NCBI GenBank assembly: GCA_019113475.1
Contig: DXHJ01000146.1
Span: forward strand, 1-40,100
Length of the DNA: 40,100 nt
Reading direction: 5' to 3'
Source: Candidatus Dorea intestinavium
GTDB lineage: Bacteria; Bacillota; Clostridia; Lachnospirales; Lachnospiraceae
The notes beneath the pieces are model-generated. The model saw nothing but the letters and a program-made list of their open reading frames with translations, made no database searches and was not told where the DNA came from. Position numbers and translations under genes: made by a program. Shown in pieces: positions 8,543 through 38,982 of the stretch. How positions within the stretch are numbered: the first letter of the stretch is position 1; each line of letters starts with the position of its first letter.

Positions 8543-9947
8543 AAAATTTGAAATATTCTTTTACGTTATTGTAGCAAACGTCTTCTATTATTTCTTTTAA
8601 GTATTGTTCTTTTGAGAAATATTCGCCCTTTTCAATCAGTTCTCCTAAATAGTTACAAAAAACTCGGCGATAGACCTCATGTCTTGGATAAGATAAAAAG
8701 CTTCTTGAATCTGTTAGCATTCCTACCGACAAGCTAACCGGATAAAGATTCGATGCTGCCTTAAATTGGCGATCTAAGCCATAAGCTTGATCGTTGAACC
8801 ACCAAGGTGCGCCCATTTGTACTTTTCCTTTTACATCACTATCACAAAATGCAGCAGCTAGAATAACAAAAGATTCAATCTGCGCAGCATTTAGAGGATA
8901 TAAAAGTGTTTTTGGTAACTCATTGATGGTTGTCAACTTATCTAAGAGTTTACCCACACTTTTGATTGCTGTGGAATCATCTACACAATCAAAGCCTGTT
9001 GAATGACCTATTACCTCAACTTTAGAAGTATTTGTATCTTGGTAAGTACCTATATGTAATTGCATAACAAAACCATTTCTGTTATAAGCTTTTGCCATTT
9101 CAAACATAAAAGCTGAGTGGTATTTAGCAATCTCTTCTTTGGTTAAGCTTTCTTTTGCTCTAGCTTTCTCTACTATTTGATTAAGCTCTTCTTTGGTGTA
9201 ATCACACCAAGTAAAGTCAGGAATTCCATCATCGCTGACGGTGGTACCGATTGCTTTAAACGCCTTTAATCTTTCTTCCAAAGAATCAATCACATCATCA
9301 AAGGTTGTGATATTTGCTTTTGTTGCCTCACTTAACTTATCAATATAAGCAGCAAAGCCTGGCTTTTCACAAAACATTGCTTCGTCTGGGCGAAAAGCTG
9401 TTAACACCTTTGTTTTAATTTTCTTTTCTTTCGCGATTACTTTATAAGCCTCTAAGGTATCTAAGGGATCTTCTGTGGTACACACAGTGTCCACATTCAT
9501 TTTTTCCATACACCAAGCAGGTGTTACTTTTTCATCTGCTATCATTGTGGTCGTCTTTTTATAAATAGCTTCTGCATTATCAGGTCCTAAAGGCTCATCA
9601 ATACCAAAATAGCGTTTTAACTCTAAGGCATTCCAAATATACAAGGGGTTGCCAATTAATTTAGGAGAGATTTCTGCATACTTCATAAATTTTTCGTAAT
9701 AGCTAGCATCACCTGTAATGTATTTTTCTTCTATACCAAAAGTTCTCATTGCCCGCCATTTGTAGTGATCACCGCTAAGCCATAATTCTCCGATATCGTG
9801 ATACTGCTTATTTTCTACAATGTCTTTAACTGGTAAATGACAGTGATAATCGATAATAGGCATGTTTTCTGCGTATGTATGATATAAATAACTTCCAGTT
9901 TCGTTGGTTAAAAATAATTCTTCACTAAATTTATTATTTAACTTCAT
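8541..9947 (-). CDS. uxaC: Glucuronate/uronate isomerase
   Basis: MPIIDYHCHLPVKDIVENKQYHDIGELWLSGDHYKWRAMRTFGI, full length; MLTDSRSFLSYPRHEVYRRVFCNYLGELIEKGEY. Confidence 0.95.
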   Translation of the reverse strand: MKLNNKFSEELFLTNETGSYLYHTYAENMPIIDYHCHLPVKDIVENKQYHDIGELWLSGDHYKWRAMRTFGIEEKYITGDASYYEKFMKYAEISPKLIGNPLYIWNALELKRYFGIDEPLGPDNAEAIYKKTTTMIADEKVTPAWCMEKMNVDTVCTTEDPLDTLEAYKVIAKEKKIKTKVLTAFRPDEAMFCEKPGFAAYIDKLSEATKANITTFDDVIDSLEERLKAFKAIGTTVSDDGIPDFTWCDYTKEELNQIVEKARAKESLTKEEIAKYHSAFMFEMAKAYNRNGFVMQLHIGTYQDTNTSKVEVIGHSTGFDCVDDSTAIKSVGKLLDKLTTINELPKTLLYPLNAAQIESFVILAAAFCDSDVKGKVQMGAPWWFNDQAYGLDRQFKAASNLYPVSLSVGMLTDSRSFLSYPRHEVYRRVFCNYLGELIEKGEYFSKEQYLKEIIEDVCYNNVKEYFKF

Positions 9948-9965
9948 CTTCTTACCTTCTTTATT

Positions 9966-10631
9966 TTATAATATACCGAATTTGGCAAAAGCATCTGTTG
10001 CCGTCATTCCTGCTTCAATTGCTTTACGAACTGTTTTTTCTCCACTGGCCTTTTCTAAACTCTTTTTAATTACTTCTACCGCAATTTCTTTAGGAATTAC
10101 TAAAACGCCATCAATATCGCCAAAAATATAGTCCCCATCATGAATGGTAACTTGTCCGATTTCAATAGGACAGCGATAATCCACTACTTGAGTACGTATG
10201 CTTGAATCTTGTGCATAGCAACCGCAACTAAAGACTGGCCAATTTTGTTCTAAGACTTGTGGGGTGTCTCTATGCCAACCATTTACAATTGCTCCTACTG
10301 CGCCTCTCGTTCTAGCTGTAGCCGTAAGAAGTTCTCCCCAGTAGGCACAACGTTTTGTGCCACCAGTAGCGATATAAATTTCATTTTTTCCTAGTTGATC
10401 TAAACATTCTGTTAAATAACCAAATGGTTTCTTTTGTGGGCCAAAAACATCGATCATTAAAACCGTCATAGCCTTTCCGGCTACTTTCATATCTGACTTA
10501 ATCCCTTGTATCTCTTGAGGAAGGAATTGATGGGCATAGCCCATTGCATCAAGAATATCTCCTACCACTGGTGTATAGAGCTTTTCTTTCATCAACTGAA
10601 ACAATTCATCTTCATTTTCCCAATTTTCCAT
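9966..10631 (-). CDS. RraA / 4-hydroxy-4-methyl-2-oxoglutarate aldolase-family protein
   Basis: Family motif [25 protein letters not shown] with the Arg-Asp pair retained; [13 protein letters not shown]. Confidence 0.85.
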
Positions 10632-25850: not shown

Positions 25851-25895
25851 AAAAAATTATCCTCTTGGTTTTTTTAACCAAGAGGATAGTTTTTT
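25851..25895. terminator. Bidirectional terminator
   Basis: TATCCTCTTGGTT (25858-25870) pairs with AACCAAGAGGATA (25876-25888), flanked by A-run and T-run. Confidence 0.85.
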
Positions 25896-27000
25896 ACATA
25901 TAATTGATTCTATAGCATGCTTCCTTTAAAGCTTCTTTAGCCTTCTTTTCTCCAATAAATGCTTCATAAATTGCTTCATATAAAATAGCATTTTTCTCTC
26001 CCATATCAGATACCATAGGCAAAGTATTTGAAATATTTAGCATTTCTAACTCAGTTTTATACCAAGAATGTGACCCTTTATCATTTTCATAACTATCTTT
26101 TCTAATAGGAACCCCACTATACTCACTAATGATTTTATCAACAGAGGGATTTTTTAAATATTGCAGTATTTTCATAACTAATTCCTTTTTTTCACTTCTC
26201 TTATTTACTGCAAAGGACCATGTAGTATTCCAAGAAGTAGTAAATGTGGAAAATCCCAATTTTTCCGGATTTTTACAGCCCTCTTTCATCACTTCAGCCA
26301 TCTGCCCCGACCAGGTAACTCCCATTGCAGCTTTTCCACTTCTTATGGCTTCGCACACTTCTTTATTTCCACATCTTTCAGTATCTTTGATTGCATATCT
26401 TTTTAGAGTACAATATTCTTCTAAGCCTTTTATAATTTCCTCATTATCACACTGACAATGCCCTTCTTTGTTATAAACGTCCTTTTTATGCATTCTTAAA
26501 AATGGTAGCGCATCTGTAAAAATCTCGCTTTTATCAGCTTTCATTACTATGCTTTCGTTTTTCTCATGTAATAATTTAGAGAGCTCTAAATATTCAAAAG
26601 GGGTAATAACATTATTTAATTTTTTTCCTATTACACTCTCAATAATATCCGATCTATAAACAATAATATGACCGTCACAAAAAGACGGGAATAAATAGAG
26701 TTCATCTTTTATTTTCAATTCTTTAACTATTTTAGGCACCACATCAGATAAATCAATTCTCATTGTATCTATAACGTCTTTTTCTACCAGTTCACGTAGC
26801 CATAAATGTCCGGCAGCCATAATTAAGTCACATTTACTATTACTTAAAGCTTGATACATTTTTTCATAGTATTTATCCCATTCCACTATATCAAAAATAA
26901 TATCTGTATTTAATTCTTTATCTATCTGCTCTTTAAGGCTCAAATATCCTTTAACAGCAGGATCATCTACTAAAAGAACTTTGACTTTTTCTCTAATCAT
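25894..27000 (-). CDS. Family 1 solute-binding-protein-like protein lacking a signal peptide
   Basis: SBP fold-like sequence (CDLIMAAGHLWLRELVEK, LYLFPSFCDGHIIVYRSDI, AIRSGKAAMGVTWSGQMAEV, WSFAVNKRSEKKELVMKILQYLKNPS). Best start is ATG 27000 behind GAGGAG; N-terminus MIREKVKVLLVDDP is hydrophilic. Confidence 0.75.
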   Translation of the reverse strand: MIREKVKVLLVDDPAVKGYLSLKEQIDKELNTDIIFDIVEWDKYYEKMYQALSNSKCDLIMAAGHLWLRELVEKDVIDTMRIDLSDVVPKIVKELKIKDELYLFPSFCDGHIIVYRSDIIESVIGKKLNNVITPFEYLELSKLLHEKNESIVMKADKSEIFTDALPFLRMHKKDVYNKEGHCQCDNEEIIKGLEEYCTLKRYAIKDTERCGNKEVCEAIRSGKAAMGVTWSGQMAEVMKEGCKNPEKLGFSTFTTSWNTTWSFAVNKRSEKKELVMKILQYLKNPSVDKIISEYSGVPIRKDSYENDKGSHSWYKTELEMLNISNTLPMVSDMGEKNAILYEAIYEAFIGEKKAKEALKEACYRINYM

Positions 27001-27015
27001 TTCTCTCCTCACATA

Positions 27016-27738
27016 TTAATATACATTTTGCATATTTACTGCACTTGAAATTCCTTTCGGCAATATATTACTGCTCATCCCCATACTTTCTCTTATTTTT
27101 GCTAATTCTCGTATTTGTTCTCCTGATAATTCATTTTGTTTATTTAGTATTTTTTCGGTAATCAAAGTTACTAATGCATAATACTCTACTGACTCCATGT
27201 GATAGAAAGCTTCCGTTACATTCTTTCCCCATGTAAGTGCACCATGATTAGCCAATAATACACTAGTATAATCTTTACAAAAAGGAGCAATTGAATCAGG
27301 TATTCCTTCTGTTCCTGGTGTAGCGTACTTAGCAACAGGAACTGTTCCTAATTGTACTATTGCCTCTGGTAATATCGCCTTGTTTAGACCAATTCCTGCT
27401 ATTGCGAAGGAAGTAGCTAATGGTGGATGTGCATGGGTCACAGCCAATACATTGGAATTTTCCTTGTAGACACGAATATGCATCTTAACCTCCGAAGAAG
27501 GCACTGAATTTCCTTTTATTATTGTGCCATCTAAATTCATTTTCACCAACATATCCTCTGTTAAAAATCCTTTAGAAACACCGGTACATGTAGTCCAAAT
27601 AGAATTATCGCTAACCTTACAACTTATGTTTCCATCATTAGCTGCAACAAATCCCTTAGCATACATTCTTCTTCCTACTTCTATAATTTCTGCAATTGCT
27701 TCTTTGTCTGATTTGTATATTCTTTTATTATTATCCAT
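27016..27738 (-). CDS. Class II aldolase/adducin family protein (fuculose/ribulose-1-phosphate aldolase-like)
   Basis: GFVAANDGNISCKV, VPSSEVKMHIRVYKE, VTHAHPPLATSFA, LLANHGALTWG. Confidence 0.9.
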   Translation of the reverse strand: MDNNKRIYKSDKEAIAEIIEVGRRMYAKGFVAANDGNISCKVSDNSIWTTCTGVSKGFLTEDMLVKMNLDGTIIKGNSVPSSEVKMHIRVYKENSNVLAVTHAHPPLATSFAIAGIGLNKAILPEAIVQLGTVPVAKYATPGTEGIPDSIAPFCKDYTSVLLANHGALTWGKNVTEAFYHMESVEYYALVTLITEKILNKQNELSGEQIRELAKIRESMGMSSNILPKGISSAVNMQNVY

Positions 27739-27877: not shown

Positions 27878-28648
27878 ATGTTAGCTGTTACAAGAAAATC
27901 AAAAATACGTGATTTATTGACTGAGCGTAAAAGTGTGACCGTCTCTGAACTTTCAGATTACTTCAAAGTAACTGAAGAAACTATCCGAAGAGATTTAAAA
28001 TCCTTAGAGGATTTAGGATTCTTAACTCGTACATATGGCGGTGCTTTTATACAAGATGGTGTAGAAAATAATGTCAATGTTGCCATAAGAGAAGTTGCTT
28101 TCACAGACAGTAAAACTGTGATTGCAAAGGCTAGTCGACACTTGATTAATAATGGAGATTCTATATTTTTGGATTCATCCACAACTGCATTATTTATTGC
28201 AAGGTCGATTAAAGAGATGAGGCTAACTGTTGTAACCAACTCTTTATTAATAGTAGATGAACTCGCTCCATATGATAATATCCATCTTATTTGTATTGGT
28301 GGGTCCTTACAAAGAGATGATAAAGCCTTTCATGGTAGTAGTGTTTTTGATCTCATAGACAAACTTTACCTTGATAAAACCTTCATGTCATGTCGTTCAT
28401 TATCTATTGAAAATGGAATAACTGACTCTTCCGAAAGCATAGGTGCTATCAGGAGAAAATTATTATCTCGTAGTAATAAAGTCTATGTTGTTGCCGATTA
28501 TTCAAAATTCAATAAAACTTCTTTTTTGCACATTTGTCATTTTAATGATATTGATGGCATAATAAGCGATTTTGAATACACTCAAGAATGGCGCGATTTC
28601 CTTAATAGGTCTAACGTCGAAATTATCAATTGCCCCTCAAAACAATAG
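27878..28648 (+). CDS. DeoR-family transcriptional regulator
   Basis: DeoR HTH (VTVSELSDYFKVTEETIRRDLKSLEDLGFLTRTYGGA) and sensor domain (GDSIFLDSSTTALFIARSI...VVTNSLLIVDELAPYDNIHLICIGG). SD TTAGGAGGG. Confidence 0.93.
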   Translation: MLAVTRKSKIRDLLTERKSVTVSELSDYFKVTEETIRRDLKSLEDLGFLTRTYGGAFIQDGVENNVNVAIREVAFTDSKTVIAKASRHLINNGDSIFLDSSTTALFIARSIKEMRLTVVTNSLLIVDELAPYDNIHLICIGGSLQRDDKAFHGSSVFDLIDKLYLDKTFMSCRSLSIENGITDSSESIGAIRRKLLSRSNKVYVVADYSKFNKTSFLHICHFNDIDGIISDFEYTQEWRDFLNRSNVEIINCPSKQ

Positions 28649-28675: not shown

Positions 28676-29746
28676 TTATTTCTTCTCCATTATTTCTTTT
28701 AGAGACTCAGTATATGGGGCTCTAGCTATACCATATTCCGTAATAATTCCAGTTATTAAGTCATTATCTGTCACATCAAATGCTGGGTTAAATACTTTAA
28801 CTCCTGATGGAGCCATTCTTTCTTTATACCACATTTCTGTAACTTCTTCGCTTGGCCTTTCTTCGATTTCTATATCACTACCACTTTTTGTAGCTAAATC
28901 AATCGTCGATGTCGGTGCACACACATAAAATGGGACATTATATCTTTTTGCTATAGTTGCAACCACTGATGTTCCAATTTTATTAGCAGTATCACCGTTT
29001 GCAGCAACTCTATCACAACCTACAAATACGGCATTAACCCATCCATTTTTCATTACCATTCCTGACATGTTATCACAGATTAGTGTGACATCCATTCCAG
29101 CTTCTTGTAGTTCATAAGCAGTCAATCTAGCACCTTGCAGCAATGGTCTCGTTTCATCTGCAAAAATATGGAAATTATAACCCCTTTCATGACCCAAATA
29201 CATAGGAGCGGTAGCTGTTCCATATTTCACTGTAGCTAATTGTCCCGCATTACAATGTGTTAATAGTCCATCACCTGGTTTTACCAAGCTTAATCCAAAT
29301 TCTCCAATTTGTTTACATACCCAAATATCTTCGTCGCGAATTTTCACCGCCTCTTTATAAATTGCTTCAACTATTTCTTTAGTCTTTTTATCTTTATTAT
29401 CATTTGCAGCTTTAAAGACCCTATCTAACGCCCAAAAAAGATTAACCGCTGTAGGTCTAGCAGTTGCCAAGTATTCTTTCGCTTTTAACAATTGTTTCAA
29501 AAACTCTTCACTGTCCTCAGTTTCTATTTCTTTAGCTGCCAAATATAAACCAAATCCAGCAGTTACCCCTATAGCCGGGGCCCCTCTTACTTGTAATAAA
29601 TAAATCGCTGTCCATATTTCTTTTTGTCTTTTTAAAGTTAACATTTCTAAATCATATGGTAATTTAGTCTGATCAATTATAATTATTGCATCTTTTTCAT
29701 CATTTAATGCAACCGTCTCATAATCTAATATTGTTTTACTTTCCAT
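28676..29746 (-). CDS. mtnA: S-methyl-5-thioribose-1-phosphate isomerase (or 5-deoxyribose-1-P isomerase)
   Basis: VRGAPAIGVTAGFGLYLA, ATARPTAVNLFWALDRV, THCNAGQLATVKYGTATAP, ADETRPLLQGARLTAYEL, GCDRVAANGDTANKIGT. Confidence 0.95.
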   Translation of the reverse strand: MESKTILDYETVALNDEKDAIIIIDQTKLPYDLEMLTLKRQKEIWTAIYLLQVRGAPAIGVTAGFGLYLAAKEIETEDSEEFLKQLLKAKEYLATARPTAVNLFWALDRVFKAANDNKDKKTKEIVEAIYKEAVKIRDEDIWVCKQIGEFGLSLVKPGDGLLTHCNAGQLATVKYGTATAPMYLGHERGYNFHIFADETRPLLQGARLTAYELQEAGMDVTLICDNMSGMVMKNGWVNAVFVGCDRVAANGDTANKIGTSVVATIAKRYNVPFYVCAPTSTIDLATKSGSDIEIEERPSEEVTEMWYKERMAPSGVKVFNPAFDVTDNDLITGIITEYGIARAPYTESLKEIMEKK

Positions 29747-29779: not shown

Positions 29780-31003
29780 TTAAAATTCTTTTGCTACTTC
29801 CTCTATAGTTTTTCTATATGATTTTCCATCTGTATAATTATTTCTATCTAATATAAATCTTTTAGCCGCACTAATGCATATCTTCTCTGCCCTTGCCCGC
29901 TTATCCTCGTCCTTAATTTGAGTAATATCTATAACATTAGCCATACCAACTATTCGTCTAATTCCTTCTAATCCGGCCACTGCTGCTGTATCTCTTAGAA
30001 TTGTACCCAAATACCATTCTTTAAATCCTTCTGTTTTAGCCATTATTTCTGTCACATTATTTTCATAATAAACATTATATTTCTCAATGAATAAGTCCAC
30101 TATATTTTCTATAGTATCTAATATCCAATTACAATATTCTTCCTTTTCTTTGTCATCTTCAATTGTCGCATCTCCATTACTCCATGCAAACATTAAATTG
30201 GCAATTATATTTCCGATATCATATCCCATTGGACCATAAAATGCGAATTCTGGATCAAAAACATAAGTGTGTTCCTTGTTAATAAAAATAGATCCTGTAT
30301 GCAAATCACCATGCACCAAAGCTTGTGCATTATTCATGAAATCAAATTTACATTTTGCCACTTCCAGATGTAAATTTTTGTCATTATAAAGTTCCTTTTT
30401 CACAAATTCTAAGTTTGGTGGGAAAACATTATTCCTGTTATTTTGGTTATTATAAGGTTCTGTATAAACTAAGTCTTCACTAATTTCACACAACTCTGGA
30501 TTAATAAACTCTTTAACCAATTCTTTTTTTGCTTTATGCTCCATTACTATATCTGTAGAAGATATAAGTGAATTTACTAAAAATGTACTAATATGATCTG
30601 CAAACAAAGGATATATTTCGTGATTCATAAGCCCCGTCCTCATCATGGTATGACCTACCATATCTTGCATTATCATTGCACACATAACTTCATCATACAA
30701 ATATACTTTCGGAACAAGCCCAGGTGCACTTTTTTCTTGAAGTCCCAAAATGCGTGCTTCTATTCTTCCTCTATCCATGGATATGCTCATCTCTGACGAT
30801 ATTCGTAATGTTTCACCAGCTTGTTTTATAATAATAGATTTCCCACTTATTTGATCTTTTACTCGAAATACATAGTTTAGATTTCCATCTCCTATTTCTT
30901 TACAAGTTAATTCAGAATTTTTATCGAAAAAATCGACCTTCTCCATCACATATTCTGGCACATCCTTTTCTTTCATAAGAAAATAACTATCAAATCTAGA
31001 CAT
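29780..31003 (-). CDS. mtnK: S-methyl-5-thioribose kinase (or 5-deoxyribose kinase)
   Basis: EIGDGNLNYVFRVKD, IIIKQAGETLRI, ALVHGDLHTGSIFINKEHTYVFDPEFAFYGPMGYDIGNIIANL. Confidence 0.93.
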   Translation of the reverse strand: MSRFDSYFLMKEKDVPEYVMEKVDFFDKNSELTCKEIGDGNLNYVFRVKDQISGKSIIIKQAGETLRISSEMSISMDRGRIEARILGLQEKSAPGLVPKVYLYDEVMCAMIMQDMVGHTMMRTGLMNHEIYPLFADHISTFLVNSLISSTDIVMEHKAKKELVKEFINPELCEISEDLVYTEPYNNQNNRNNVFPPNLEFVKKELYNDKNLHLEVAKCKFDFMNNAQALVHGDLHTGSIFINKEHTYVFDPEFAFYGPMGYDIGNIIANLMFAWSNGDATIEDDKEKEEYCNWILDTIENIVDLFIEKYNVYYENNVTEIMAKTEGFKEWYLGTILRDTAAVAGLEGIRRIVGMANVIDITQIKDEDKRARAEKICISAAKRFILDRNNYTDGKSYRKTIEEVAKEF

Positions 31004-31015
31004 TTATACAACCTC

Positions 31016-32023
31016 CTAATTTTTTTTATTGTAATATGTCATTGCTAACGCTACCGCTAAAACGATTCCTTTAACTATGTTCATTGCATAATATGGAACT
31101 GCCATCATAATTAAGCCATTCTCCAAAATACCTACCAATGCTGCTCCTACCAAAGTTCCAAAGGCATTTGCTTTACCCGCTCCTAACACTGAGAATCCAA
31201 TATAGGCTGCTGCCACCGAGGGCATTAAATATGCATCTCCTGCCTGAACTTGCGCCGTTCCTACCCTCGCAGCTAAACATATTCCACCTATAGATGCGAA
31301 TATTGCTGACATAAAATAAGCTAGAATTTTATATTTTGCAACTGGTATCCCTGATAACTTAGCCGCTTCAGGGTTTCCTCCAACAGCATACATATATCTA
31401 CCATGTTTTGTATAACCCAAGAAGAAAATAGCGAATACCACAACGCACAACATAATTATAATTAGCCATGGCTCTGAACCCATTGCTTTAAAATGACTAC
31501 TTAATAATCCTTCAGCTTGGCTTCCATCTGGTCTTGTCATTCTTTCAGTTATGGCTCCACCTCTTGAATATGTTAAAGATACACCTTGAAACATAAACAT
31601 AACTGCCAATGCTGCTACCATATCAGGTATCTTGAATTTAACAATTAGAATGGAGTTTACAATTGCAATTGTTAAACATACCATAATAGTAAGTAATATT
31701 GATAAGCCCATATTTAAGTTGTACCATACAAACATTGTCATAATAAAAGTGTCTGCAAAATTCGCGCACGCACCTATTGATAAGTCCATTCCATCAACTG
31801 CTAAAGAATAGGTTAACCCAATAGAAATAATTGTTGTAATAGAAATGGCTCTTAAGATTGTAATAATATTAGAGGTCGTCAAAAACATGCTTCCTCCAAC
31901 CTGTGTGTTCCAGTTAGCAAAAGTAAATATTAAAAACAAAATAACAAGAGTTACTATTGTTCCCCATTTCATAATAAAATTTGATGTATTTACTTTTCTA
32001 TTCTTTGTCTTAGCCTGATTCAT
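31016..32023 (-). CDS. Sugar (ribose-type) ABC transporter permease, RbsC family
   Basis: TTSNIITILRAISITTIISIGLTYSLAVDGMDLSIGA; HGRYMYAVGGNPEAAKLSGIPV. Confidence 0.93.
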   Translation of the reverse strand: MNQAKTKNRKVNTSNFIMKWGTIVTLVILFLIFTFANWNTQVGGSMFLTTSNIITILRAISITTIISIGLTYSLAVDGMDLSIGACANFADTFIMTMFVWYNLNMGLSILLTIMVCLTIAIVNSILIVKFKIPDMVAALAVMFMFQGVSLTYSRGGAITERMTRPDGSQAEGLLSSHFKAMGSEPWLIIIMLCVVVFAIFFLGYTKHGRYMYAVGGNPEAAKLSGIPVAKYKILAYFMSAIFASIGGICLAARVGTAQVQAGDAYLMPSVAAAYIGFSVLGAGKANAFGTLVGAALVGILENGLIMMAVPYYAMNIVKGIVLAVALAMTYYNKKN

Positions 32024-32024
32024 T

Positions 32025-33533
32025 TTATTTTCCTCCTGTCGAATAGTATAGTAACTCTTTTTCAGTAGTTTCTTTTACGCCCAATTCTTTCACTATTTGT
32101 CCATCATACATAACATAGATCCGATCACAGATGCTTAGAAGTTCTTGAAACTCACAAGTAGCATAAATAGCACCTTTCCCTTGAGCTGCTAGATCTTCAA
32201 TAAGCTCATACATATCTTGTTTTGCTCCGACATCTATTCCTTTTGTTGGTTCATCATATATGTATACATCTGATGCTGAATTAAGCCATTTTGCTACTAC
32301 TACTTTTTGTTGGTTACCACCTGAAAGTAGAGAAACTTTCTGATTCTCAGAAGGAGTTTTTATTCCTAATCCAGATATCATTTCTTTACTGTCTTTTTTT
32401 TCTTTTTTCTTATTAATAACAGATATTTTATTAGTATATTTTTTTAAAGCTGAAATTGTAATGTTCGCATACACTGGATCAGTTACAAGGACGCCTTCTT
32501 TTCTTCTTTCTTCTGGAATGAGCGCCATTCCATGTTTTACTGCTTTGCGTGGACTTTTCATGTGTATATTTTCATTTTTTAATTTTATTGTTCCATCATA
32601 TTTATAACAACCAAATAAGGTTTTACATAATTCCGTTTTCCCTGCACCTACTAGGCCTGCAATTCCAACAATTTCACCTTCCCTAACATACATATTAATG
32701 TCTTTTACTTTGTTATTACTTTCAGTTAAATTGCTAACTTCTAATAATGGTTTTCCTATTTTGCATGGTTTCTTTACATAAACATCATCGTATTTTCTTC
32801 CCAACATGTATTCAACTATAGTATTGGCTTTTAAATCTCTTGAAAAAGGCATACTCTTTACAACCTTGCCATCTTTCATAATAGTTATATCTTCACAAAT
32901 CTCATACAATTCATTTAATCTGTGGGATATAAAGACAATTCCCACACCTTGTTTAGCTAGGTCTCTTACTACTTCAAACAACTCTTCCGTTTCTGTATTT
33001 GATAAAGGTGCTGTTGGCTCATCTAGTATAAGGAATTTACATTTTTCAACTACACATCTTGCTATAAGAACCATTTGTTTCTCTGCCAATGACAACTCTG
33101 AAGCCGGCTTAGTTACATCAACATTAATATTTAAAGAATTAAGCATTTCCCTTGCTTCTTTCCTTATATTTTTCCAGTTTACTAGTTGCTTTTTTCCCAT
33201 TTTGTTCACGATTGAGTTCAACATTACATTTTCTGCAACTGATAAATACGGGATTAATGCTGTATCCACTTCTTGATATACTATTTCAATTCCCTTTTCT
33301 TTCGAGTCTTTAGGGGATCGGATTTCAATCGGATCCCCATTAAGATAAATTTGGCCTGTATAATGATTATTTACTCCACCTAAAACTTTCATTAGTGTGG
33401 ATTTTCCAGCCCCATTAGCGCCAACAAGAGCATGTATCGTTCCGCTTTCTAAGCTAAAGTCAGCGCCCTCAAGTGCTTTAACACCAGGAAATTCTATAGA
33501 TATATTTTTCATTTCTAGTTTTGTTCGTTCCAT
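32025..33533 (-). CDS. Sugar (ribose-type) ABC transporter ATP-binding protein, RbsA family (two ATPase domains)
   Basis: GANGAGKSTLMKVL, SLAEKQMVLIARCV, LILDEPTAPLS, second domain GLVGAGKTELCKTLFG, LLSGGNQQKVVVAKWL. Confidence 0.95.
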   Translation of the reverse strand: MERTKLEMKNISIEFPGVKALEGADFSLESGTIHALVGANGAGKSTLMKVLGGVNNHYTGQIYLNGDPIEIRSPKDSKEKGIEIVYQEVDTALIPYLSVAENVMLNSIVNKMGKKQLVNWKNIRKEAREMLNSLNINVDVTKPASELSLAEKQMVLIARCVVEKCKFLILDEPTAPLSNTETEELFEVVRDLAKQGVGIVFISHRLNELYEICEDITIMKDGKVVKSMPFSRDLKANTIVEYMLGRKYDDVYVKKPCKIGKPLLEVSNLTESNNKVKDINMYVREGEIVGIAGLVGAGKTELCKTLFGCYKYDGTIKLKNENIHMKSPRKAVKHGMALIPEERRKEGVLVTDPVYANITISALKKYTNKISVINKKKEKKDSKEMISGLGIKTPSENQKVSLLSGGNQQKVVVAKWLNSASDVYIYDEPTKGIDVGAKQDMYELIEDLAAQGKGAIYATCEFQELLSICDRIYVMYDGQIVKELGVKETTEKELLYYSTGGK

Positions 33534-33551: not shown

Positions 33552-34673
33552 TTATTTTACATATAAGTCTGTTATATCATCTGTATATAACGCTCCTTCT
33601 GGATCTTCAGCATTTCCCCATCCTTCAATAATTTCGCCTAATTGATCCATTGTTGTTCCTTCTTTTAATTGTGTTGTAACAATATTATTGGCACTAAGAT
33701 TAAAATATTCAGGTGTCTCTTTTCCTGCTAATTTCAAAGCAATAAGTCTCATGTCTACTATACCTATTAATTTAGGATCTACAGCTGCCGCTGACTTCCA
33801 TATTTCTGGATTTTCCACCATTAACTGAATGTCATCATTTGATATATCAATTGTGTACATTGGCATATCTGTTCTTTTCGCATCTTTTAATGCTTGTAAA
33901 ACGCCTTTTGCTAATTCATCATAACAACCCCATATTGCATCAACTTCACCCTCTCCAATCGTAGGTAAAATTGCTTCTGTCTTAGTAGTAACATCTCCTC
34001 TAGCATTTGCTGAGTCAGATGGTGAAATTGTATTTATAGTCTTGATTTTTCCTTCTTTTTCTAATTTTTCATATACAACATTTCTTCTATCAAGAGGAGG
34101 CACTCCAGGACCCATAAATGTTTTTAAAACATTCATCGGATATTCTCCACCTTTTTCTTCAAATTCTTGCATCATATATCCTAACGATAGTTCAGCTAAT
34201 GCTTGATCATCTTGAGCTGTTGAGGTCACTCCTTTAAGTAGTTCTCCTTCAGCATCTCCATCTTTCATTGGCATTGTATCAAAAGTAACTACTTTCATTC
34301 CTTTCTCTATAGCTGGCTCTAACATCCTGTATGAATAGGATAATTGACCATGAGATACTACGAGTGCATCATAGTTTTGGCTAATTACTTGTGCTACTGT
34401 CTCTTGACATTTAGCATCATCACCATCAGTTACAAAAGTATCAACCGTAAATCCGAATTTTTCACCTTCCTCAACACATCCTGCAAGAAATTGTTGAGTA
34501 TGATCCCCATTAGCTAGATTCCTTACAACTGCAACTTTTTTCCCGCTGATCCCGTCGGCAGTTGCATCGCCTCCACTTGTATCACTCTTTTGTGCTGCCT
34601 TGTCGCCACAACCGACTAACATCCCCATTAACATCGCAGAACATAACAGGATACTTACAATTTTCTTTTTCAT
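33552..34673 (-). CDS. Sugar ABC transporter substrate-binding lipoprotein (periplasmic-binding-protein type 1 fold)
   Basis: Lipobox AMLMGMLVGCGDK; KKVAVVRNLANGDHTQQFLAGCVEEGEKFGF, VISQNYDALVVSHG. Confidence 0.92.
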   Translation of the reverse strand: MKKKIVSILLCSAMLMGMLVGCGDKAAQKSDTSGGDATADGISGKKVAVVRNLANGDHTQQFLAGCVEEGEKFGFTVDTFVTDGDDAKCQETVAQVISQNYDALVVSHGQLSYSYRMLEPAIEKGMKVVTFDTMPMKDGDAEGELLKGVTSTAQDDQALAELSLGYMMQEFEEKGGEYPMNVLKTFMGPGVPPLDRRNVVYEKLEKEGKIKTINTISPSDSANARGDVTTKTEAILPTIGEGEVDAIWGCYDELAKGVLQALKDAKRTDMPMYTIDISNDDIQLMVENPEIWKSAAAVDPKLIGIVDMRLIALKLAGKETPEYFNLSANNIVTTQLKEGTTMDQLGEIIEGWGNAEDPEGALYTDDITDLYVK

Positions 34674-36917: not shown

Positions 36918-38792
36918 CTATCTTACTTTTCTTTGTCTTGTCACCTGTGCTATTACAAGCACAGAGACCAAAACTAATAATTGTAAGTTAAGGACTTTTT
37001 GATTTAACAGGTCCCCAGTTTTTGCATTTTTAGGTGCCGACACCGGAGCCGGTGCTGGTGGTTTTAAGCCACCTGGTGCTGTTGGTGCACTACTTGGTGC
37101 CACCGTTTGTGCTGGCGTGGGAGCTGCTGCTGTTGGCTTGCTTGGATTAAAAATCTCACTAATAGTAAAAGGGCCTGCCTCATAATTATCATGACTTGCT
37201 GGTTCATAACCTACTCTTACTTGATAATTTTTTAAATCTTTTGGATCCCAACTAATGGTTGCCTCACCTACTAAACTGTCTTCATTTTCTCTGGTAATTA
37301 AACTTTTGCCAATTACATTCCAAGTCTTACCGTAATCCGTAGTGTATTCAAAAACAGCTTCACCAGCCGCTTTGGTTTTCTCTTTTAAGCCTTCAACTGT
37401 TGCTTTTAGGGTTCCATCTGCTACTTTTAGATCTTTCATTTCTACCACAAAACGCTTTAAATTACCTGCTTCATCGTATTCTCCTGCTGCCTCTTTTGCT
37501 CCATTTCCTAAAACAGTGGAATTTGTAATTTTTCGTTTTTCAGGAAGATTTGCATTTTCATCTGCTAGATAAAGCGTCGAATTTAAGACTTCAAGTCCGG
37601 AATCATTGCCCGCCAAAAATCCTTTTGCATAAAATGTCGCCTGATCAAGGGTAAAAGTTCTTCCTGCATAAATTTCAATAAAATCAGCTTGTTGCACTTC
37701 GATAACATTTCCGTCACCTACTAAGCTACTGCCAAGCTTTACTTCGCCGGTTAGGGAAATAGGTTCACTTTTCTTACCGGTAAAAATTAGTTTTCCGCCA
37801 TCAATATTTAAGTTATGGAAATTAACTTTATCTCCCGTTACTTCTAACTCACCTTTAATAGTCGTATCATAAAAGTTAGTGCCACTGCGATCTTGAAGGA
37901 CTTTTCCTTCTTTTTCTATTTGTAATTCTTCTATAGCAATTGGGCTATTACTTTCTTCTAATGTTGTATCGGCTTGGATTCTTATCCGGCCAGACAGAAG
38001 CGTTAACGGTGTAAGTTCTTCGTTTGTAGCAAGAACCATTTCACCTAAGTTTCCCTCTTCATCCATAATCTGGTAAGTCCCACCAAATATTTTTCCTGGT
38101 ACCTCGTTTTCTCCTTTTTGTAAGAAAAGCTGTGCTCCTGGTGCTACTTTTACTTTTCCTTTAAACTCACTATTATCTCCTTTTAAGAAAAGTAGCCCAT
38201 TGCCAATTTCTAAATTGGCCTCTTCTGCTCCTTTTACAAAGCCATAATGAGTGTAAGTACTTTCTCCTTCTTCTACCTCTCCAGAAGAGAAGGTAAAAGT
38301 AGCATCTTTTGCGATTTCAATATTCCCACCAAAGTTTACCGCTTTCGGATCCATTAAAATCCTTCCTTCTTTGACATTTAACTTGCCATTAAACCAAGAA
38401 TAGTCGCCTTTTAAAAGCAAATCTTCTTTTCCCTCTTTAGTCAAAATTAATTCATCACTTGGTGCTGGTCTATTTTCACTAAGTCCTTCTGGATATCCTG
38501 CCAAGGAATACAAAGAACTTGCAAGGACTCCTTCATCTGGTAAAAACCATTCTTTTTCGCTTACCGGTAAATAAAGCGCTGTTTTTCCATCGTAATTTAA
38601 AAAATCATTTTTAGTTTCTGTATCTGCTACGACCCAGTTATTAATCCCTCTCTTTTGCAACTCGTAAATGCCTCGGTTGGCTAAATCATCAGGAGCAACT
38701 TCTAAATCATTTGCGAATGTTCCTAGTACCAAAGTCGTACTTGCCATAATTGAGGTAGCTAACAACTTAAATATTGTTCTTTTTTTGTTCAT
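36918..38792 (-). CDS. Secreted cell-surface protein with beta-helix-like repeats and atypical C-terminal sortase signal
   Basis: Signal peptide MNKKRTIFKLLATSIMASTTLVLGTFA (ATG 38792 behind AAGGAG is a better start than 38810); repeats such as LLLKGDYSWFNGKLNVKEGRILM and LFLKGDNSEFKGKVKVAPGAQLFL; Pro/Ala-rich linker; KNAKTGD, hydrophobic segment, RQRKVR tail. Confidence 0.8.
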   Translation of the reverse strand: MNKKRTIFKLLATSIMASTTLVLGTFANDLEVAPDDLANRGIYELQKRGINNWVVADTETKNDFLNYDGKTALYLPVSEKEWFLPDEGVLASSLYSLAGYPEGLSENRPAPSDELILTKEGKEDLLLKGDYSWFNGKLNVKEGRILMDPKAVNFGGNIEIAKDATFTFSSGEVEEGESTYTHYGFVKGAEEANLEIGNGLLFLKGDNSEFKGKVKVAPGAQLFLQKGENEVPGKIFGGTYQIMDEEGNLGEMVLATNEELTPLTLLSGRIRIQADTTLEESNSPIAIEELQIEKEGKVLQDRSGTNFYDTTIKGELEVTGDKVNFHNLNIDGGKLIFTGKKSEPISLTGEVKLGSSLVGDGNVIEVQQADFIEIYAGRTFTLDQATFYAKGFLAGNDSGLEVLNSTLYLADENANLPEKRKITNSTVLGNGAKEAAGEYDEAGNLKRFVVEMKDLKVADGTLKATVEGLKEKTKAAGEAVFEYTTDYGKTWNVIGKSLITRENEDSLVGEATISWDPKDLKNYQVRVGYEPASHDNYEAGPFTISEIFNPSKPTAAAPTPAQTVAPSSAPTAPGGLKPPAPAPVSAPKNAKTGDLLNQKVLNLQLLVLVSVLVIAQVTRQRKVR

Positions 38793-38982
38793 ATAAAGTT
38801 TCTCCTTCATATCTTACCTAGCCTTCATTATATATTTTTTGTGGTTAGTAGCAAGCAAACCGCGTTAACTTAGGCTTTTACAAAGCATAGTGAAAACATT
38901 AACAAATCGTTTATTTTCCTCTTATCTCTCGTAACATTATGTGTCATTCTTTTATGTTCTTTATACCACTATCAGATACCGG

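Follow-up and report, generated by a model that had tools for sequence, protein, structure and literature searches.

Gene clusters for 5-deoxyribose salvage (DHAP shunt) are known that encode MtnK, MtnA and DrdA/Ald2, accompanied in E. coli by a DeoR-type regulator (PMC6079011, PMC10986504, PMC12632272). Aldolase-type microcompartments are known as PVM-like, and GRM5 loci are likewise known (PMC4207490, PMC8217296). Among matches to the Pfam profiles of solute-binding proteins (SBPs), cytosolic single-domain proteins account for about 1% and constitute a recognised minority class (PMC9602780). Our literature search found no published link between a cytosolic SBP-fold protein and a 5-deoxypentose pathway and no proposal of a 5-deoxyribose microcompartment, though supplementary catalogues may list such loci without comment. 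Here we analysed a stretch of 40,100 nucleotides from Candidatus Dorea intestinavium (contig DXHJ01000146.1; hereafter the window), for which an initial annotation had reported an SBP-like protein without a signal peptide, encoded directly behind an aldolase gene. This observation was confirmed.

The genes for MtnK, MtnA and a class II aldolase are clustered in the window (Table 1), which is the gene set by which 5-deoxyribose salvage/DHAP shunt is recognised. The SBP-like gene is the last of the operon, which is ended by the intrinsic terminator. Both the preferred start with its Shine-Dalgarno motif and the proposed closeness of the aldolase stop (about 15 bp upstream) were seen in the sequence: the aldolase TAA occupies positions 27018-27016, 15 nt from the SBP-like ATG. 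As this TAA is at the same time the upstream in-frame stop of the SBP-like open reading frame, the frame cannot be extended. Aldolase and SBP-like protein share a frame across the TAA in the window, yet a readthrough fusion was dropped as a candidate because the shared frame is not conserved in the homologous loci L056 and L061, where the two genes are separated by 20 and 62 nt, respectively. The importer has, as annotated initially, a lipoprotein SBP of its own, which belongs to Peripla_BP_4 and thus to another family than the SBP-like protein. Neither the window operon nor the other clusters, which were annotated by comparison with it, contained a recognisable MalF/MalG-type permease, and the RbsC-type permease belongs to the importer; the proposed lack of an adjacent permease partner stands. 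BMC shell genes are absent from the window operon; the seven BMC-domain matches of this genome all fall into a separate locus of GRM type on a different contig. This glycyl-radical-type microcompartment locus (L039, 9659-19629; contig C79, offset 5000) has its own class II aldolase with a C-terminal extension, PduL, a PduS-like protein, BMC-T and an activase-like gene. Elsewhere in the window (36918-38810), a 630-aa protein without a Pfam match carries a hydrophobic stretch at the N-terminus, a proline-rich part and a hydrophobic, basic tail at the C-terminus.

Table 1. Features of the window operon and loci of secreted relatives
Feature	Location	Strand	Evidence or remark
Intrinsic terminator, 13-bp stem and T run, directly 3' of the SBP-like stop	25858..25888	-	
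SBP-like gene (family-1, no signal peptide), 368 aa, start ATG 27000	25894..27000	-	SBP_bac_1, two-lobe fold, 27 homologues
Ribosome-binding site GAGGAG of the SBP-like gene, 4 nt ahead of ATG	27005..27010	-	sequence
Class II aldolase (PF00596), 240 aa, without C-terminal extension	27016..27738	-	
DeoR-family regulator, divergent, with own DeoRC sensor domain	27878..28648	+	
MtnA-type 5-methylthioribose/5-deoxyribose 1-phosphate isomerase	28676..29746	-	TIGR00512 419 bits, cut-off 279
MtnK-type 5-methylthioribose/5-deoxyribose kinase	29780..31003	-	TIGR01767 418 bits, cut-off 275
RbsC-type sugar importer permease (BPD_transp_2)	31016..32023	-	
RbsA-type importer ATPase, two ABC domains	32025..33533	-	
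Importer's own lipoprotein SBP, Peripla_BP_4, signal and lipobox	33552..34673	-	
Sensor-type lipoprotein family-1 SBP locus	L114 1016-7112		
Sensor-type lipoprotein family-1 SBP locus	L115 3896-8921		
Sensor-type lipoprotein family-1 SBP locus	L118 5610-11706		

The alignment by eye with family-1 SBPs, on which the initial annotation relied, is backed by a Pfam match to SBP_bac_1 (PF01547; E 4e-13, 50.5 bits against a curated cut-off of 26), and the domain spans the protein nearly end to end. An NCBIfam search of the same protein gave no match. The structure prediction that had been called for returned a complete and confident two-lobe SBP fold (AlphaFold, pLDDT 93, pTM 0.90), whose best PDB matches were sugar SBPs, MalE3 and SmoF among them (TM 0.85-0.86). 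Foldseek searches against viral proteins yielded weak matches only. MqnA, MqnD and THI5-type proteins are enzymes built on the SBP fold; none of these was the closest, and the listed top PDB matches were binding proteins or MBP-tagged constructs. In a profile alignment, D109 and W261 correspond to D113 and W276 of SmoF, which we take to be ligand residues, and the position of SmoF R345 is held by Leu. The conserved set comprises D13, H65, W67, D109, H111, E159, N212, W230, W257 and W261, all of them pocket-like except D13 and H111. Since these positions are mostly acidic, His or aromatic, the putative pocket would, judged from the sequence, fit a neutral sugar better than phosphate.

Because a single genome could hold a frameshift, homologues were gathered from the relatives, family, order and phylum of the window; the GTDB contig collection and the order to which genome G936 belongs served as further sources. 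A single-sequence scan of genome contigs revealed no SBP-like homologue; the alignment-based scan of the GTDB contig collection recovered 12 SBP-like loci. The final set holds 28 distinct loci including the window, with near-duplicates (L029/L031, L065/L066) and some close members (L027, L028, L036), and the other proteins are 29-48% identical to that of the window. The hosts are Clostridia-type Firmicutes and one spirochaete, and no further spirochaete member was found among 247 genomes of that phylum.

All 28 proteins begin at, or slightly before, the first beta strand, and this strand (residues 4-11 in the AlphaFold model) is the sole hydrophobic run near the N-terminus of the window protein. 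The best 12-residue Kyte-Doolittle mean within the first 40 aa, which served as signal measure, was 0.82 for the window protein and 0.82-1.79 for the 26 SBP-like proteins measured, versus 2.40-3.19 for signal-bearing controls (importer lipoprotein SBPs with intact start and secreted family-1 SBPs from related genomes). A signal peptide or lipobox was found in 0 of 28 proteins (26 judged by hydrophobicity, L112 and L113 by their N-terminus). The signal-less state claimed for the window protein thus extends to its 27 homologues, none of which has the conserved signal that had been named as evidence against it. A local frameshift or misread start was rejected, as the signal-less N-terminus is common to all 28. 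The cysteines pointed out initially are present (9 in the window protein; C108 is conserved in 25/28 and C242 in 26/28), but their supposed unusualness did not hold: among secreted family-1 SBPs from related genomes the number of Cys ranges over 1-10, and it has therefore no diagnostic value. An ordinary external SBP, exported by a non-classical route or with a misjudged start, would be in keeping with fold and pocket, both as in transport SBPs; however, with no signal in any homologue, the window frame closed by the aldolase stop, no MalF/MalG-type permease recognised in the 28 clusters and an importer served by its own SBP, we regard this as highly implausible.

The SBP-like proteins form one clade, and a single branch (SH-aLRT 100) splits the cytosolic from the sampled secreted proteins. 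They probably descend from an exported family-1 SBP whose signal was lost once. With dN/dS values of 0.05-0.19, purifying selection acts on the gene. Three secreted relatives are lipoprotein family-1 SBPs without a permease, encoded beside Reg_prop hybrid histidine kinases or a dCache-GGDEF protein.

The recurrence beside DHAP-shunt aldolases, for which a homologue search had been advised, was observed: signal-less versions lie in DHAP-shunt-type clusters, next to importer, mtnK, mtnA and aldolase genes, and missing neighbours reflect contig ends. The contig of L031, for instance, starts at eutN. The immediate neighbour of the SBP-like gene varies by locus and can be the aldolase gene, mtnK, mtnA, deoR or eutN. 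In one sample of 295 genomes from the order, the SBP-like gene occurs in 14, MtnK in 21 and both together in 12 (Fisher p 3e-14). In the two genomes with the SBP-like gene only (G471, G585), the contigs start inside the cluster; in genomes with MtnK only, the cluster is mostly of another kind, its aldolase being distant (~30% identity) and an Rbs-type importer absent. Genome G064 offers what may serve as a natural deletion: its complete microcompartment cluster (L098, 613-16594) lacks the SBP-like gene, and eutN and the CoA-disulfide reductase gene lie ~110 bp apart. Since this and other mtnK/mtnA clusters are without it, the SBP-like protein is not essential to the pathway.

Microcompartment genes belong to the same operon in 21 of the 28 loci, a context of the SBP-like gene that is new relative to the initial annotation. 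Typical shell loci encode an aldehyde dehydrogenase (PF00171; NCBIfam PRK15398), BMC-H proteins, PduL and EutN and usually continue with CoA-disulfide reductase, a two-subunit CoA transferase, Fe-alcohol dehydrogenase and DhaK/DhaL. The SBP-like gene directly follows eutN in most of the 21 operons. Locus L017, which comes from Anaerocolumna aminovalerica DSM 1283 and has its SBP-like gene at 9382-10494, yielded Pfam matches to BMC, EutN_CcmL and PTAC; of the microcompartment genes, the short contig of the spirochaete locus L037 shows only those for BMC-T and an EutN protein. In L033 (14042-15927), the place of the Fe-alcohol dehydrogenase is held by a 445-aa ORF, PduS-like by eye, and a BMC-T-like shell protein. 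No shell gene was found in seven loci (window, L035, L056, L061, L073, L112, L113). Complete shell-associated aldolases have 259-333 aa including a C-terminal extension, which often ends in a motif such as EIIAEVVRRVMGQ, resembling an encapsulation peptide, versus 201-242 aa and no extension in the shell-less loci. In the shell-less L073 (12031-14410), mtnK is followed by an aldehyde ferredoxin oxidoreductase and a divergent class II aldolase, an arrangement that suggests another aldehyde outlet. On the trees, shell presence or absence switched at least 2-3 times; the window and L056 sit within the shell-bearing clade and therefore probably lost the shell. Operons combining mtnK, mtnA, an extended aldolase and microcompartment genes were seen in L017 (326-14864), L018, L027-L031, L033, L034, L036, L055, L057-L060 and L062-L066. 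They are probable 5-deoxypentose metabolosomes and possibly part of the catalogued PVM-like type.

The frequency of shell operons and the usual position behind eutN could indicate a microcompartment component, that is, cargo, a scaffold or a shuttle bringing substrate to the shell. This is very unlikely given the seven clusters that keep the gene without a shell, the repeated switches on the trees and the full shell cluster L098 without the gene; moreover, the SBP domain fills the protein almost completely, so that an encapsulation peptide would have no place in it. Because shell-less clusters keep the gene, a role as shell scaffold was rejected. As seven shell-less loci retain it and L098 lacks it, the SBP-like protein serves the pathway and not the shell: it accompanies one lineage of the pathway as an accessory that is not essential and does not belong to the shell.

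In this accessory, 41 residues are invariant across the 28 sequences. The invariant polar residues H65, D109, H111, K154, E159, D163 and R169 exceed the needs of simple binding, and C108, kept in 25/28, adjoins D109. Together with the location of a signal-less cytosolic protein among enzyme genes, this would suit an enzyme with an SBP fold, such as an anomerase, an epimerase or a catalyst in the aldehyde branch. We consider such an activity unlikely, though a real rival to binding: those invariant positions that could be mapped coincide with the ones by which ordinary SBPs contact sugar, binding proteins head the fold matches, and the pathway is complete without this protein in L098 and, as described, in other organisms (PMC6079011, PMC10986504).

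The cytosolic binding-protein role considered initially is supported by the lack of a signal in all 28 proteins and by the recurrence in DHAP-shunt-type aldolase clusters. Our main reading, to which we assign a probability of about 0.5, is that the SBP-like protein binds a neutral pathway sugar in the cytosol, as a sensor or buffer for pathway enzymes. It would be dedicated to the catabolic cluster for 5-deoxypentoses (5-deoxyribose/5-methylthioribose, DHAP shunt), and its putative ligand would most likely be the unphosphorylated 5-deoxypentose from the Rbs-type importer. The protein may close around the sugar, and the closed state may inform or feed pathway proteins, with kinase, isomerase, aldolase or regulator as candidate targets; it would not deliver substrate to a permease. 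Weak hints point to the sensor variant, namely the permease-less secreted relatives beside signalling proteins, the spirochaete gene in L037, which directly follows and overlaps deoR, and the mtnK neighbourhood in L073, L112 and L113, where the SBP-like gene adjoins mtnK. The DeoR regulator has its own sensor domain, which counts against the main reading, as does the absence of the SBP-like gene from L098 and other mtnK/mtnA clusters. The arrangement in L037 and the pairing of some secreted relatives with signalling proteins would also agree with a dedicated co-regulator working through the DeoR repressor. This narrower function is improbable, since besides the DeoRC domain, no deoR was recognised in the examined stretch of L059 and L062-L066, where the SBP-like gene is kept.

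Radical SAM and polyamine chemistry generate toxic by-products, which are the source of 5-deoxyribose and 5-methylthioribose. The gene context suggests one of them as substrate for a group of aldolase-type microcompartments, and such clusters may be detoxification or scavenging organelles of gut-type Clostridia. Tentatively, a former sugar-capture protein could have become a cytosolic effector by which free 5-deoxypentose gates kinase, aldolase or regulator, with the aldolase-type microcompartments that carry it being 5-deoxyribose/5-methylthioribose organelles. In any case, with a family-1 SBP that is consistently signal-less and bound to one pathway, the recruitment of a transport protein into metabolism or regulation becomes open to testing.

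Compared with known systems, the SBP-like protein shares the two-lobe fold, a near full-length alignment and the Asp/Trp positions of the sugar site with family-1 extracellular SBPs (PF01547; SmoF, MalE3, TMBP), but it has neither signal, lipobox nor MalF/MalG permease and belongs to a clade apart from the sampled secreted ones. With the cytosolic SBP-profile proteins (PMC9602780) it has in common a signal-less SBP fold in the cytosol, whereas the family found here is defined, conserved and linked to a single catabolic cluster, and the literature searched yielded no published counterpart. Kinase, isomerase and class II aldolase genes are clustered as in 5-deoxyribose salvage, often with a sugar transporter; the accessible portions of those reports (PMC6079011, PMC10986504, PMC12632272) mention no SBP-like protein or microcompartment. 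Relative to PVM-like and GRM5 loci, the homologous loci add mtnK, mtnA, the Rbs-type importer, CoA-disulfide reductase, CoA transferase and the SBP-like gene, and the window operon itself has no shell genes. Cytosolic SBP-fold proteins, DHAP-shunt clusters and PVM-like loci were already known; new, as far as our literature search goes, is the conserved signal-less family-1 SBP as a probable partner of 5-deoxypentose clusters.
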